Positions 1,004 to 42,246 of a DNA stretch of 64,000 nucleotides are shown here, piece by piece. Position 1 is the first letter of the stretch. Every line of letters begins with the position of its first letter. Source of the stretch: Phnomibacter ginsenosidimutans (lineage in GTDB: Bacteria > Bacteroidota > Bacteroidia > Chitinophagales > Chitinophagaceae); contig NZ_CP046566.1 of NCBI RefSeq assembly GCF_009740285.1, forward strand, positions 1,294,501-1,358,500, given 5' to 3'. The notes below the pieces were generated by a model. The model saw only the letters and a program-made list of their open reading frames with translations, ran no database searches and had not been told where the DNA came from. The translations under genes and the position numbers were made by a program.

Positions 1004-3825
1004 TTACAAAAAACGACCCGTATGGCTATCCTTGCATTTCTTCAGGTCTTGCGGCAGGCCGGCAAATACCAAAGTACCACCGCCATCACCTGCTTCCGGG
1101 CCGAGGTCTATCACCCAATCAGCATGTTTGATGACATCGGTATTGTGTTCAATTACCAAAATGCTGTGGCCCTGTGCTATGAGTGCATGAAAAGAGTTGA
1201 GCAGTTTTTGAATGTCGTGAAAATGCAGGCCCGTAGTAGGTTCGTCAAAAATAAAGAGCACATGACCGGCGCTTTTTCCTTTGCCCAAAAAGCTGGCCAG
1301 TTTTACCCGCTGTGCTTCACCTCCACTCAGGGTGTCACTGCTTTGCCCAAGCTTTACATAGCCAAGGCCCACATCACTCAATGGTTGAATGGCAGCTAAG
1401 ATGGCTTTTTGATCGGCAAAAAAAGCAATGGCTTCATCCACACTCATTTCGAGTACATCGAAGATATTTTTTTCGAGATAGGTTACTTCCAGCACTTCGT
1501 CTTTAAAGCGTTGGCCTTTGCAGCTTTCGCATTGCAAATGCACATCGGCCAAAAACTGCATTTCTACAATTTGTTCGCCTTCGCCTTTGCAGGTATCGCA
1601 GCGGCCGCCATCTACGTTGAAGCTAAAGTGCTTGGGTTGAAAGCCGCGGATTTTACTGAGCGGTTGTGCGGCATACAAATCACGAATGGCATCCCATGCT
1701 TTTACATAAGTAACGGGGTTGCTGCGACTGCTTTTACCAATGGGGTTTTGATCCACCATTTCAATAGCGGTGATGCTATCGATATCGCCGCTAATTTTTT
1801 TATGTGCTCCTACTTTATCGCCGTATTCCCCTTTTATTTTTTGCAGGGCGGGATACAAAATTTGTTTGACCAATGTGGTTTTGCCACTGCCACTCACACC
1901 ACTCACCACTGTGAGTACACCCAGCGGAAAAGTCACGTCAATATTCTGCAGGTTGTTTTGCCGGGCACCTTCTACCGTAATGCTTTTCTTCCACTTGTGC
2001 AGCTTGGCCGGGCCGGTGATTTGCATAGCGCCATTCAGGTACTGGCCGGTCAGGCTTTTGGGGTTAGCTGTAAGTTCGGCATAGTTGCCGGCGGCTACCA
2101 CCTCGCCGCCCATGTGGCTGGCCAGTGGGCCCATGTCGATGATGTAATCGGCTTCCCGCATCATCATTTCATCGTGCTCTACCACCACCACCGTGTTGCC
2201 CAAGTCCCGCAGGTTTTTCAGCACCTGTATCAGGCGTTTGGTATCGCGGCTGTGCAGGCCAATGGAAGGTTCATCGAGTATGTACAACGAGTTGGTAAGG
2301 TTGCTGCCCAGCGAACGGGTAAGTTGTATGCGTTGGCTTTCACCACCGCTCAGCGTGTTAGCCAAGCGGTTGAGGGTAAGATACCCAAGACCTACATCCA
2401 TCATGGTTTGCAGGCGTACTTCCAGCTCCATCAGTAGGCGTTTGCCCACTTCAGCATCGTATTCACTCAGGCGGAGTTGTGCAAACCACTGCTGCAAATC
2501 ACGGATGGGCATTTCACAAAGTTCGCCAATGTGTTTGCCGCCAATTTTTACATACAAGGCTTCTTTGCGCAGCCGGTAGCCACCGCATTCGTGACATTGG
2601 GTGCGGCCACGGTAGCGGCTTAGCAGCACCCGGTATTGTACTTTGTAGAGGTTTTGTTCTACCTCTTTGAAAAAAGCATTGAGGCCATCAAAATAGGCGT
2701 TGCCCGTCCACAGCAGTTTGTATTCGGCAGGTGACAAATCATGCACCGGTTTGTGAATGGGAAAATTAGAAGACTTGGCCGCCCGTACGAGTGCCTTGTT
2801 CCATTCGCCCAGTTTTTCGCCACGCCAGGGGGCAATGGCACCCTCGTATACACTCAGGCGTTTGTCGGGTATCACCAGGTCGGGGTCAATGCCCAGCACT
2901 TGTCCAAAACCCTCGCAGGTAGGACAGGCACCAAAAGGATTGTTGAAAGAAAACAGGTTGGGTACGGGTTCTTCAAACTGCATGTCATCCAGCTCAAAAC
3001 GGTTGCTGAACGAGAGCATTTTGCTGCTGTTGATTTCCAGCTGGCAGCTGCCTTCGCCTTCGTAAAAAGCCGTATCCACCGAATCGGAAATGCGATGCAA
3101 ATCGTCTTCATCAAAATCCCGAATCACCAGCCGGTCCACCAACACATAGCCAGGCGTTTTGGCCGTCATCTTTTTATCAAAAGCGGCAATTTCAGTATCG
3201 TCTTCCAGCAGGTCTTCTATGCGTAGGGTTTCGCCTTTTACATATACCCGTGTAAAACCCTTTTGCAGTAAAATATTCAGTTCTTCCTTGGTGTTGCGGT
3301 TAGCATGTTTTTTAAACGCCACCAGCAGTAATACTTTATCGCCTTCGGGCAATGCTTTGATGCTGTTAATGACGTCGGTTACGTCGTCTTTTTCACCTCG
3401 CGGCCGCTTACTGGTGAAATGGTGTGGCCAATGCGGGCATACAACAGGCGGAGGTAATCGTACATTTCCGTCATGCTGCCCACGGTACTGCGGGGCGTAC
3501 GGGTGATGACTTTTTGCTCAATGGCAATGGCAGGGCAAAGGCCCTTGATGTAATCCACATCGGGCTTGTTCATCCGCTGCATAAACTGGCGGGCATAGGC
3601 ACTCAGGCTTTCGGCATAGCGGCGCTGGCCTTCGGCAAAAAGGGTGTCGATAGTAAGGGATGATTTGCCTGACCCGGAAACGCCGGTTACCACCACCAGT
3701 TTGTTGCGGGGGATGGCCACATCCACATTTTTCAGGTTGTGGGTACGGGCACCTTTTATGAAAATATGATCGGCAGGTTCGATGGCGGTTTCAGCGGGCT
3801 TTTTTCCCTTTTGTGACACTTTCAT
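1004..3825 (-). CDS. uvrA: Excinuclease ABC subunit A, with apparent one-base deletion
   Basis: UvrA is the damage-recognition ATPase of nucleotide excision repair. Both ABC modules are present: Walker [10 protein letters not shown] near the N-terminus, GVSGSGKTT in the second half, and two LSGGE signatures. The frame breaks at a T5 run on the plus strand (3389-3393). As written it reads GREVKKTT-stop; one more base gives [24 protein letters not shown] and joins the downstream frame. The repaired protein is 940 residues, a normal UvrA length. The first CxxC of zinc finger 1 is absent: the stretch before [16 protein letters not shown] has no cysteine, which I recall as common in Bacteroidota UvrA proteins. 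Start: ATG at 3825, [10 protein letters not shown]. Confidence 0.95.
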
Positions 3826-38140: not shown

Positions 38141-38207
38141 TTTACTCGGATAAACCGATTAATATTCTATAGCCATAAGGGGTATACCTTTATGGCTATT
38201 CTTGTGT

Positions 38208-39107
38208 ATGGATGTATCAACCGCGATAGCCCGTTTTCTTGATTATTTAAAATTCGAAAAGCGTTATTCAGCGCATTCCATTCAGGCATACCAGCATGAT
38301 TTAGCACAGTGCAGTTTTTTTCTGCAACAGCAGTTTGATGTAAGTACAGATGTGGCTGAAATCAGTACATCCATGATTCGCACCTGGCTGGCTCAGTTAA
38401 AAGACGATGGCATGGAGGCCCGTACCATCAACAGAAAGCTGAGTGCATTGAAATCCTGGTTCAGGTTTATGCGCCGCCAGCAATGGTTGAATACCAATCC
38501 ACTTGCCATTATCAACGGGCCGAAAGTGCCCCGCAAGCTGCCTTCATTTGCCAACGAAACGGAGATTGATAAACTCTGGAACAACATTGTGTATCCTGAT
38601 ACATGGCTGGGCTTTACGGAAAAAATGATACTGGAGTTGTTGTACCAGACCGGCATGCGTAGGGCAGAGCTGATCAACCTCAAAGAAAGTCAGGTAGACA
38701 GCGGGCAGCGGGTACTGCGTATTTTGGGCAAAGGCAATAAGGAAAGGCTGATTCCGGTAAGCCCTTTGTTGCTGGCGCATTTGGCGCAGTACATGGCCGA
38801 AAAAAGAAGACAACTGGAAACGCCGGACACAACTTATGTGCTGGTAAATGAAAAGGGCAAGAAGTTAACGCCACATATTGTGTACCGAACGGTGGTTAAG
38901 TATCTTGGAGAAGTGTCGTCATTGGCCAAAAGAAGTCCGCATGTGCTACGGCATAGTTTTGCAACACACCTGGCCAATGCCGGGGCTGATCTTAATGCCA
39001 TCAAAGAATTGCTTGGCCATAGTAGTTTGGCTGCCACGCAGATTTACACCCACAACAGCATCGAAAAACTGAAAGATGTACATCGTCAGGCGCATCCCAA
39101 GGCTTAA
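38208..39107 (+). CDS. xerC: Tyrosine recombinase, XerC/XerD type
   Basis: A 299-residue recombinase. The N-terminal core-binding domain begins MDVSTAIARFLDYLKFEKRY. The catalytic set is visible: Arg in LYQTGMRRAELINLKES, Lys in ILGKGNKERLIPVSP, HxxR in SPHVLRHSFATHLANAGAD, His in IKELLGHSSLAATQIYTH with the nucleophile tyrosine. This is the size of the Xer proteins that resolve chromosome dimers at dif. The neighbours, rpsU before and hpf after, are the usual ones for the chromosomal xer gene in Bacteroidota, which argues against a mobile integrase. Whether it is XerC or XerD cannot be settled here. Confidence 0.9.
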   Translation: MDVSTAIARFLDYLKFEKRYSAHSIQAYQHDLAQCSFFLQQQFDVSTDVAEISTSMIRTWLAQLKDDGMEARTINRKLSALKSWFRFMRRQQWLNTNPLAIINGPKVPRKLPSFANETEIDKLWNNIVYPDTWLGFTEKMILELLYQTGMRRAELINLKESQVDSGQRVLRILGKGNKERLIPVSPLLLAHLAQYMAEKRRQLETPDTTYVLVNEKGKKLTPHIVYRTVVKYLGEVSSLAKRSPHVLRHSFATHLANAGADLNAIKELLGHSSLAATQIYTHNSIEKLKDVHRQAHPKA

Positions 39108-39260: not shown

Positions 39261-39557
39261 ATGACCTTGAACATCCAATCTGTGCGGTTTGATGCAGACG
39301 AAAAACTGATTGAACACGTGAACAAGAAAATCGCCAAACTGAGTACCTATCACGACCGCATTATTAAAGTAGATGTATTTCTTAAACTGGACAATGTAGT
39401 ACACACCATCAAAGACAAAGTAGCAGAAATCAAAGTCACCATTCCTAAAAACGAGGTATTTGTAAAATCCAGTAGTAAATCTTTTGAAGAGTCATTTGAC
39501 AACGCATTTGAAAGCGTTTGTACACAGATAAAACGAAAAAAAGAAAAACTTGCCTAA
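39261..39557 (+). CDS. hpf: Ribosome hibernation-promoting factor, short form
   Basis: A 98-residue protein, MTLNIQSVRFDADEKLIEHV, with VKSSSKSFEESFDNAFESVC and a basic end, matching HPF/RaiA. Short HPF helps dimerise and silence 70S ribosomes in slow growth. Start ATG 39261 is chosen; a TTG six bases upstream in frame is less likely. A terminator follows seven bases after the stop, and the archaemetzincin gene separates it from the tRNAs. Confidence 0.92.
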   Translation: MTLNIQSVRFDADEKLIEHVNKKIAKLSTYHDRIIKVDVFLKLDNVVHTIKDKVAEIKVTIPKNEVFVKSSSKSFEESFDNAFESVCTQIKRKKEKLA

Positions 39558-39563
39558 CATTTT

Positions 39564-39596
39564 ACAAAAGCCCCGCCTCCAAAGCGGGGCTTTTGT
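39564..39596. terminator. Intrinsic terminator after hpf
   Basis: ACAAAAGCCCCGC (39564-39576), a seven-base loop, GCGGGGCTTTTGT (39584-39596): a 13-base perfect stem with A and T ends on either side. Confidence 0.92.
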
Positions 39597-40250
39597 ATGA
39601 ATCATGAATACATGCCTTTCTACTTTACATCCCCATTCTTTTTCTTGATTATATGCTGCTGTTGTAGTTGGTCCTGCAAGCAGCCTTCGGCAGCGGAAAC
39701 CTTTTTGAAAGCTACAAGCAAACCTATCATCGCAGTGCAAATACTGCCGTTGGATGATGCGGATACAGCTGCCCTTCAATTTTTGAAAATGGCAATAGCA
39801 GACAGTTTAGATGTGCCTGTTGAAATTTTACCGGCGTCCACCATTCCAGCAAATGCATGGTATGCAGCCCGCAAACGCTACTGGGCAGATAGCATTTTGC
39901 ACTGGATGAAAAAAGATGCCCGCTTGCCGGGAGAAAAGCGGCTGGCAATAACCGGGAAAGACATTGCCGCTACAACCATCAAACAATACAATTGGGGAGT
40001 GATGGGGTTGGCACATCAGCCAGGAAGCGTTTGTGTAGTGTCTGATTACAGGTTGCATAGCGCTTCAACCACGGCAGAGCAGCGTAGGCACAAGCTCCTT
40101 AAAATAGCATTGCATGAACTGGCACATACCAGCGGATTGCCACATTGTAAGCAGCCCAATTGCCTGCTGGCAGATGCGGAAGGAAAGGACAAAACCAAAC
40201 AGCTGAGTGGCTTTTGCCATAGCTGTAGAAAGCACTTAATGGGGCAGTAA
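39597..40250 (+). CDS. Archaemetzincin-like zinc metalloprotease, putative lipoprotein
   Basis: A 217-residue protein, or 212 from the ATG at 39612. The N-terminus is hydrophobic and rich in cysteine (FFFLIICCCCSWSCKQ), so it is a likely lipoprotein. The metal motif near residue 173 is LHELAHTSGLPHCKQPNC, later followed by FCHSCRKHL. This matches HExxHxxGx3Cx4CxM...CxxC of archaemetzincins, with Leu in place of the Met and a slightly shorter gap before CxxC. The three histidines and the catalytic glutamate are intact, and four cysteines can bind a second zinc. Archaemetzincins are metallopeptidases of poorly known biology. The gene has its own start right after the hpf terminator and is inserted between hpf and the tRNAs. 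Confidence 0.87.
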   Translation: MNHEYMPFYFTSPFFFLIICCCCSWSCKQPSAAETFLKATSKPIIAVQILPLDDADTAALQFLKMAIADSLDVPVEILPASTIPANAWYAARKRYWADSILHWMKKDARLPGEKRLAITGKDIAATTIKQYNWGVMGLAHQPGSVCVVSDYRLHSASTTAEQRRHKLLKIALHELAHTSGLPHCKQPNCLLADAEGKDKTKQLSGFCHSCRKHLMGQ

Positions 40251-40270: not shown

Positions 40271-40300
40271 TTTGACGTATACCTAATTCGCTTACTTTTG
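40271..40300 (+). promoter_or_regulatory. Promoter of the tRNA-tuf operon
   Basis: TTTG at 40271-40274, 18 bases, then TACTTTTG at 40293-40300, an exact TAnnTTTG box. The first tRNA begins 66 bases later. A small CCCG...CGGG hairpin lies in the leader. Confidence 0.75.
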
Positions 40301-40366: not shown

Positions 40367-40439
40367 GCCACTTTAGCTCAGCTGGTAGAGCAACTGATTT
40401 GTAATCAGTAGGTCGTTGGTTCGATTCCGACAAGTGGCT
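40367..40439 (+). tRNA. tRNA-Thr (anticodon TGT)
   Basis: Acceptor GCCACTT pairs with AAGTGGC, discriminator T. The anticodon stem ACTGA/TCAGT closes a loop with TGT. The T arm carries GGTTCGATTCC. The CCA end is not encoded. Confidence 0.95.
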
Positions 40440-40517
40440 CATTTGAAGTGTGGAAAACAGAGTTTGCAGTGTGGTTGAATACAACTTACTTCGCGGCTCG
40501 TTTATCTGGCTTTACAA

Positions 40518-40603
40518 GGGCAGTTTCCAGAGCGGCCAAATGGGGCGGACTGTAAATCCGCTGTCTTTCGACTTCGGAGGTTCGAATCCTCCACTGCCCA
40601 CCA
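40518..40603 (+). tRNA. tRNA-Tyr (anticodon GTA)
   Basis: Acceptor GGGCAGT pairs with ACTGCCC, discriminator A, and CCA is encoded (40601-40603). The anticodon loop CTGTAAA holds GTA. The long variable arm is as expected for tyrosine. Confidence 0.95.
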
Positions 40604-40709
40604 CTCAACAAGAGAATGTAACAATTGACTTCAGTCAATCTGTTGCATTTTTTGCTGAAAAAAGTTCTTTTGAGAGTTGAAGCACGAAAGTGTTTTTACT
40701 CAAGCTTCT

Positions 40710-40782
40710 GCGGGAGTAGCTCATTTGGTAGAGCGATAGCCTTCCAAGCTATAGGTGGCGAGTTCGAGCCTCGTCTCCCGCT
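40710..40782 (+). tRNA. tRNA-Gly (anticodon TCC)
   Basis: Acceptor GCGGGAG pairs with CTCCCGC, discriminator T. The anticodon loop CTTCCAA holds TCC, with stem ATAGC/GCTAT. CCA is not encoded. Confidence 0.95.
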
Positions 40783-40870
40783 CACCGAACAGTTGACAAC
40801 AGGCAATTGACAGGTTAGATGCAGTTTAGAAACTGTATAATGTCAGCAGTTCGTTGTCATCGGTTGAAAA

Positions 40871-40945
<75 letters not shown>

Positions 40946-41057: not shown

Positions 41058-42246
41058 ATGGCAAAAGAGACCTTTAAGAGGGAAAAACCCCACGTTAACG
41101 TAGGTACTATCGGCCACGTTGACCACGGTAAAACCACCCTTACCGCTGCCATCACTAACATCCTTGCTAACAAGGGTTTGGCAGAAAAAAAGGGTTATGA
41201 TGAAATTGATGCTGCTCCCGAAGAAAAAGAGCGTGGTATCACCATCAACACCGCTCACGTAGAGTACCAAACAGCTAATCGTCACTATGCTCACGTTGAC
41301 TGCCCTGGTCACGCTGACTATGTGAAAAACATGATTACTGGTGCTGCACAAATGGACGGTGCAATCCTGGTTGTGGCTGCTACCGATGGTCCTATGCCTC
41401 AAACTAAAGAACACATCCTCTTGGCCCGCCAGGTAGGTGTTCCTAAGATCGTTGTGTTCATGAACAAAGTAGACCTGGTAGACGACCCTGAGTTGCTCGA
41501 ACTGGTTGAAATGGAAATTCGTGACCTCCTCAGCTCTTACGGTTTCGACGGTGACAACACTCCAATCATCAAGGGTTCTGCTACAGGCGCCCTGGCTGGT
41601 GAAGAAAAGTGGTTGGCTGCTATCGACGAACTGATGGAAGCTGTTGATACATACATTCCGCTGCCTCCCCGCCCGGTTGATCAGGGCTTTCCTGATGAGC
41701 GTGGAAGACGTATTCTCTATCACTGGTCGTGGTACAGTTGCTACCGGTCGTATCGAACGTGGCCGTATCAAAGTTGGTGAAGGTGTTGAAATCGTAGGTA
41801 TGATGCCTGAGAAACTCACCTCTACCGTTACTGGTGTAGAAATGTTCAAAAAACTCCTCGACGAAGGTGAAGCTGGTGACAATGCTGGTCTGCTCCTCCG
41901 CGGTATTGAAAAAACTCGGATCCGTCGTGGTATGGTAATCTGCAAACCAGGTTCTATTACTCCACACACTGAGTTCAAAGGTGAAGTTTACGTACTGAGC
42001 AAAGAAGAAGGTGGTCGTCATACTCCTTTCTTCAACAAATACCGTCCTCAGTTTTACTTCCGTACTACGGACGTAACTGGTGAGTGTGCTCTGCCTGCAG
42101 GCACTGAGATGGTAATGCCTGGTGACAACACTTCTCTGCACGTTACATTGATTCAGCCAATCGCTATGGAAAAAGGTCTGAAGTTCGCTATCCGCGAAGG
42201 TGGCCGTACCGTAGGCGCTGGTCAGGTAACTGAGATCATCAAGTAA
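41058..42246 (+). CDS. tuf: Elongation factor Tu, with apparent one-base insertion
   Basis: EF-Tu delivers aminoacyl-tRNA to the ribosome. The G domain is clear: [19 protein letters not shown], the switch region [32 protein letters not shown], and NKVDLVD. At 41684-41686 there are three Gs where two are expected. As written the frame runs to [14 protein letters not shown] and stops; dropping one G gives [21 protein letters not shown] and continues through [13 protein letters not shown] to the end. The repaired protein has 395 residues, the normal length. Because EF-Tu is essential and the rest is perfectly conserved, a sequencing error is far more likely than a true pseudogene. It sits among four upstream tRNAs and tRNA-Trp, secE and nusG. 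Confidence 0.97.

Follow-up and report, generated by a model that had tools for sequence, protein, structure and literature searches.

We found that an open reading frame (ORF) in a 64,000-nucleotide stretch of Phnomibacter ginsenosidimutans DNA (assembly GCF_009740285.1, contig NZ_CP046566.1; hereafter the window) encodes a member of the archaemetzincin family (M54) with an intact zinc motif and a leucine in place of the Met-turn methionine. The gene lies in a conserved locus with the order xerC-hpf-amz-tRNA(Thr,Tyr,Gly,Thr)-tuf, and its intact counterparts beside hpf in other genomes fall with it into a single clade. On balance we think it probable that the product is a zinc metallopeptidase that is exported by the Sec pathway and acts in the cell envelope, and that its gene entered this site once, in an ancestor within the family. 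For the most part the gene is ordinary: it has long occupied its site and belongs to a widespread class of exported archaemetzincins, within which it is a Met-turn variant. The features discussed below are collected in Table 1.

Table 1. Coordinates within the window of the archaemetzincin gene, its sequence elements and its neighbours
Feature	Position	Strand	Basis
Archaemetzincin-family (M54) ORF, 217 aa	39597..40250	+	ATG start, TAA stop; profiles, PDB matches, AlphaFold model
Candidate export signal, hydrophobic and Cys-rich; candidate lipid-anchor Cys27 in an atypical lipobox, CSWS-C	39597..39677, codons 1-27	+	Sequence, rule-based scans, relatives
Zinc site HELAHTSGLPHC and four-Cys set (C184, C189, C207, C210)	40113..40226, codons 173-210	+	Sequence, alignment
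Leu codon CTG replacing the Met-turn methionine	40167..40169, codon 191	+	Sequence, alignment
Tyrosine recombinase gene (xerC by reading), part of the conserved neighbourhood	38202..39107	+	Pfam PF00589, PF02899
hpf, ribosome hibernation factor, upstream neighbour	39261..39557	+	Profile matches
Terminator-like hairpin and T run that follow hpf and immediately precede the ORF	39570..39595	+	By eye
Promoter-like site TTTG-N18-TAnnTTTG of the tRNA operon	40271..40300	+	Consensus match
tRNA-Thr, tRNA-Tyr, tRNA-Gly and tRNA-Thr ahead of tuf (41058 on)	40367..40945	+	

The ORF is a real gene, with a second possible ATG at 39612. Across the six frames of the window, HExxHxxGxxHCx4C was found a single time, and it was absent from all of 100 mononucleotide shuffles; pN (0.321) is lower than pS (0.746) between the gene and its relative L002, a pair for which dS is saturated; the close pair L002/L031 gave a dN of 0.008 versus a dS of 0.05. 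The protein matched Pfam PF07998 with 33.7 bits, above the curated cut-off of 24.4. Its match to the subfamily model NF033823 (E 2.1e-30) scored 105.9 bits, below the curated cut-off of 145, a value that only one class genome reached (247 were searched; 41 gave a match, and 40 of these stayed below it). The top PDB sequence matches were 4axq/3zvs (E about 1e-12). Modelling with AlphaFold from an alignment of 23 rows gave a mean pLDDT of 88.5, and a Foldseek comparison of this model with the PDB returned five matches at E <= 0.001, all of them archaemetzincins (3zvs A and B, 4axq, 2x7m and 3lmc), with 3zvs as the best (E 7.5e-15, TM 0.90 on the target) and TM values up to 0.91 among the five. 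The protein is thus predicted to adopt the archaemetzincin fold. The family had first been proposed from the letters of the sequence by a model that ran no database searches (the sequence-only reading), and Pfam, the PDB matches and the predicted fold agree with that identity, the NF033823 score below its cut-off being a point against.

Further examination of the motif region, HELAHTSGLPHC-KQPN-C-LL-...-CHSC, showed that HExxHxxGxxHC, Cx4C and CxxC are all intact: the zinc motif HELAHTSGLPH with its catalytic Glu spans residues 173-183, and C184, C189, C207 and C210 supply the four conserved cysteines (C-x4-C ... C-x2-C). None of the zinc ligands, nor the catalytic Glu, nor any of the four Cys varies among 23 aligned sequences, that of the window protein included. 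The sequence-only reading had described a complete zinc motif, a further Cys set and a Met-to-Leu change after the second Cys, and all three stand, the last as Leu191 where relatives have Met. The archaemetzincin fingerprint published in PMC3427221 calls for CxM and for 17 residues from this Met to CxxC. The window protein has Leu191 at the Met-turn and was therefore filed as an M54 variant with no literal fingerprint match; it also has 15 residues, not 17, between the Met-turn position and CxxC, a spacing common to L002 and other family relatives.

The replacement is rare. The Met-turn methionine is missing in only one of 62 archaemetzincin ORFs from the family, genus and class (that of the window alone) and in one of 80 loci from named records (Met in 79, Leu in the deltaproteobacterial record L158, among the matches listed); the two sets overlap in part. 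Such rarity would fit a proteolytically dead family member, with a zinc site weakened by Leu191 and a binding or structural role like that of CarG, an inactive bacterial homologue according to PMC3427221. We consider this unlikely, although it is the alternative to which we give most weight. The zinc ligands and the catalytic Glu of the window protein are intact, whereas CarG, according to the same paper, is without the catalytic Glu. Accounts of the change in other metzincins (PMC1266349) point both ways: the Met-to-Leu form of MMP-2 tolerates it well, with activity nearly unaffected, but the M226L form of protease C is compromised. Leu is thus nearly neutral in one enzyme and harmful in another, and Leu191 is therefore compatible with an active enzyme as well as with an inactive one.

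To look for export signals, we required a start codon and, at most 30 residues on, a hydrophobic stretch containing no charged residue; a strict lipobox pattern was scored as well, and all these rules and cut-offs were ad hoc. A hydrophobic N-terminal stretch was found in 56 of the 62 archaemetzincin ORFs (family, genus and class) and a strict lipobox in 35, the window protein being among the lipobox misses. For comparison, long ORFs of other genes in the window had a hydrophobic start in 13 of 33 cases and a strict lipobox in none (0/33), and the corresponding control counts at the named loci were 77/223 and 20/223. Among the matches listed, 78 ORFs of the named loci were divided into 44 with a lipobox, 21 that were hydrophobic only and 13 with neither; the other two of the 80 loci gave no ORF under the export rule. 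A looser scan of stop-to-stop frames, run with no control, gave 60/62 hydrophobic starts and 36 lipoboxes, and in a few of its rows (L018 for one) the peak may fall upstream of the real start. Among control ORFs, a hydrophobic start by itself is frequent and a lipobox is not. It follows that lipoprotein-like exported archaemetzincins are common in Bacteroidota relatives, contrary to the suggestion of the sequence-only reading that an exported, membrane-bound form is less usual.

The signal of the window protein itself is atypical. Its N-terminus is Cys-rich and hydrophobic, as that reading had noted, but the lipoprotein-like character ascribed to it holds only in part: the hydrophobic stretch is not preceded by any K/R, and Cys27 fails the strict lipobox pattern. 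The protein thus belongs to the hydrophobic-only class, which was also reached by 13/33 controls, and the case for its export is therefore drawn mainly from the relatives. These features leave some room for a protein that stays soluble in the cytoplasm because its hydrophobic start does not work as a signal, and one class member (L066) is indeed a short ORF without an N-terminal extension. We nevertheless think such a form rather improbable for the window protein, whose strong hydrophobic peak of 2.76 sits at the very place where signals, mostly with a lipobox, are found in its relatives. It seems that the window protein is probably sent out of the cytoplasm, in keeping with the export suggested by the sequence-only reading and supported here by the rule-based signal scan, mainly via the signals of relatives. 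In the archaemetzincin literature, as represented by titles and the opening parts of abstracts, no treatment of exported bacterial forms was found.

The gene is placed between the end of hpf and the tRNA operon, as the sequence-only reading had it. The hairpin behind hpf, identified by eye, has a 7-pair stem (39570-39590) followed by a T run, and a similar hairpin-like stretch was seen by eye in the linked loci of relatives. A terminator scan of the region reported 4 sites, those at the hpf hairpin included, which is no excess over shuffles (mean 2.0, sd 1.7). On the other side, the site TTTG-N18-TAnnTTTG, the Bacteroidota-type promoter consensus, precedes the tRNA genes; it is complete in 10 of the 12 loci that carry the gene beside hpf (L019 has the -7 part only, and L032, from G195, ends with its contig before the tRNAs) and likewise complete in 12 of 18 hpf-tRNA intervals without an archaemetzincin gene. 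Upstream of the archaemetzincin ORF, no promoter belonging to this gene itself was recognised, and near the archaemetzincins of the window clade no partner gene was seen beyond the xerC-hpf-tRNA-tuf set.

Downstream, the tuf frame (41058-42246) is broken by a frameshift near 41690, which may be an assembly error; it is the best GTP_EFTU match in the genome, and the other strong GTP_EFTU matches are in longer frames. Since the best EF-Tu match of this one-contig genome is frameshifted, errors may therefore exist in the sequence, and the Leu codon could in principle be one of sequencing or assembly. We hold this to be quite unlikely, because the EF-Tu case is an indel and not a substitution, and because Leu at the Met-turn also occurs in the unrelated record L158.

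We also surveyed the distribution of the gene. An archaemetzincin match was present in 43 of 195 family genomes sampled and adjoined hpf in nine of these 43, the window's included (eight intact copies and a broken one in G173); adjacency was judged by comparing loci and coordinates by eye, with four genomes whose hpf place was unlisted checked separately. At the genus level, seven of 10 genomes had a match, and among the eight with an hpf match the gene stood beside hpf in five (G000, G080, G195, G196 and G200), the hpf site was empty in two (G197 and G199), and G157 had hpf without xerC or tuf in the stretch examined. Overall, 12 genomes of six genus codes (g1, g20, g26, g52, g91 and g100) carry the gene at the hpf site, namely that of the window and 11 others, with one copy broken. 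Named genomes scanned with the window protein alone gave no match; rescanning them with alignment A1 led to the 80 loci mentioned above, kept from at least 296 relatives with some other phyla included, and one of these records (L126, among the matches listed) shows the order xerC-hpf-amz. Two genus genomes (L034 and L035) also have a second, different archaemetzincin type, HETGHMLGLAHC, in longer frames.

In the opposite direction, 30 hpf loci were chosen by hpf similarity; the gene was present in six of them, the window's included, and absent from the stretch examined in 24. tRNA genes were seen behind the interval in 18 of these 24 loci, while the other six had none in the stretch examined, and no remnants of the gene were detected in the hpf-tRNA intervals of the 24 (stretches of up to 1.5 kb on each side). 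The statement of the sequence-only reading that relatives normally have no gene there is thus right in that the site is often empty. In G173 (L096, about 1798-2133), the archaemetzincin at the hpf site is broken, with five stops in the match, while that of its near relative L003 is intact. Given this broken copy and the relatives without the gene, the archaemetzincin gene is therefore dispensable.

When 62 proteins were placed in a tree, all 11 intact hpf-linked copies fell on one side of a branch with a support of 96/86, which was recovered in 98% of 200 bootstrap trees (L093 is absent from this tree and from the motif counts, and L079 and L080 are duplicates). The tree built from the neighbours xerC, hpf and tuf (34 rows, some with long branches) requires six changes to account for the presence of the gene, and holding the 12 carriers together on it was rejected (p-AU 4.6e-11); this tree skipped L038 and L042, in which xerC or tuf hits are missing, and left out six hpf loci that repeat archaemetzincin loci. 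The linked copies form one clade and the carriers do not, and the gene therefore appears, on these trees, to have come to the hpf site once, long ago, and later to have been lost repeatedly or moved with the segment. Either repeated loss, of which G173 shows an intermediate stage, or transfer of the segment as a whole would explain the patchy presence of the gene, as sampled with gene-free loci chosen by hpf similarity. The sequence-only reading had taken the gene for a local insertion and had named a phylogeny with soluble Bacteroidota forms at the same locus as the result that would speak against it. Such a phylogeny with forms at the same locus was obtained, except that these forms are exported and not soluble, and the 11 other genomes of six genera with the gene beside hpf contradict the insertion. 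A recent insertion confined to this one genome or species, which the 24 gene-free hpf loci and the two genus members with an empty site might suggest, is rejected as highly improbable, because the same gene occupies the same site in other genera as a single clade and its G+C content (0.47) resembles that of the window (0.46).

Other archaemetzincin genes were observed in different contexts. Among the matches listed, all 20 loci of Chryseobacterium, Cloacibacterium and Halpernia (L102-L141) have the order barnase-like RNase, archaemetzincin, barstar (for example L102:2028-3920), with the archaemetzincin and barstar frames overlapping in 19 of the 20; the exception is L130 (Cloacibacterium rupense, about 2812-3411), where no single open frame covers the archaemetzincin. 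Pfam confirmed the barnase-like and barstar families on one representative, L102. G222 also has barnase-like and barstar genes with a broken archaemetzincin between them, and, this genome apart, the pair was seen in no archaemetzincin locus compared outside the Chryseobacterium group (among the matches listed). A search of the window genome for barstar gave no match at E <= 0.001. In addition, 11 loci from diverse phyla (L066, L137, L147, L162 and others, among the matches listed) have the archaemetzincin close to a response regulator that contains a sigma-54 interaction domain, for which Pfam was run on L066 only.

Combining these observations, we propose that the window archaemetzincin is exported by the Sec pathway, most likely works in the cell envelope and is probably tethered there by a lipid at Cys27. 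In its active site, the catalytic zinc would be bound by His173, His177 and His183 and Glu174 would act as the base, and the four cysteines would stabilise the C-terminal part of the protein. Leu191 would stand in for the Met-turn methionine, with activity lowered but not abolished. The gene would have entered the hpf-tRNA interval once in an ancestor within the family and since then have been inherited, lost or moved with the segment. The envelope metallopeptidase is possibly latent. The crystallised archaeal AmzA proteins reportedly showed no activity in standard assays (PMC3427221), and AMZ-tk is reported to have degraded casein with zinc (PMC4681839). Graef and colleagues noted disulphides in several other metzincins where archaemetzincins hold Cys4 zinc (PMC3427221). 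A more far-reaching and speculative picture, which we regard as doubtful, is that exported archaemetzincins are a large envelope protease class of Bacteroidota whose four cysteines may form disulphides in an oxidising compartment instead of a zinc knot, that the Leu form of the window still works, and that the Chryseobacterium-group member between the barnase-like and barstar genes may serve to process the RNase or set it free. In the archaemetzincin papers searched, we saw no bacterial family member with an intact active site to which a function had been assigned. The common lipoprotein-like exported archaemetzincins of Bacteroidota, some at stable sites, are a convenient panel for assays, and with the naturally occurring Leu form one could test whether the enzyme needs the Met-turn methionine, and to what extent.

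Compared with AfAmzA of Archaeoglobus fulgidus (3zvs, 4axq) and MkAmzA of Methanopyrus kandleri (2x7m), to which it is 24-28% identical, the window protein has the same predicted fold, HExxHxxGxxH motif and cysteine order; it differs in its added N-terminal hydrophobic signal, in Leu for Met and in having 15 residues before CxxC, versus the 17 reported for the archaeal proteins. The archaemetzincins of named Bacteroidota records (Chryseobacterium, Flavobacterium, Pinibacter and others, among the matches listed) share the domain of the window protein, with a hydrophobic start in 65 and a lipobox in 44 of the 78 ORFs from named loci, some of them of other phyla; they lie at other loci, except for L101 and L126, and 79/80 retain the Met-turn Met. 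CarG of Myxococcus xanthus is inferred to belong to the non-proteolytic, archaemetzincin-like model NF033824; the window protein matches this model distantly (37.3 bits, cut-off 250), and the catalytic Glu, which is Gln in CarG according to PMC3427221, is kept in the window protein.
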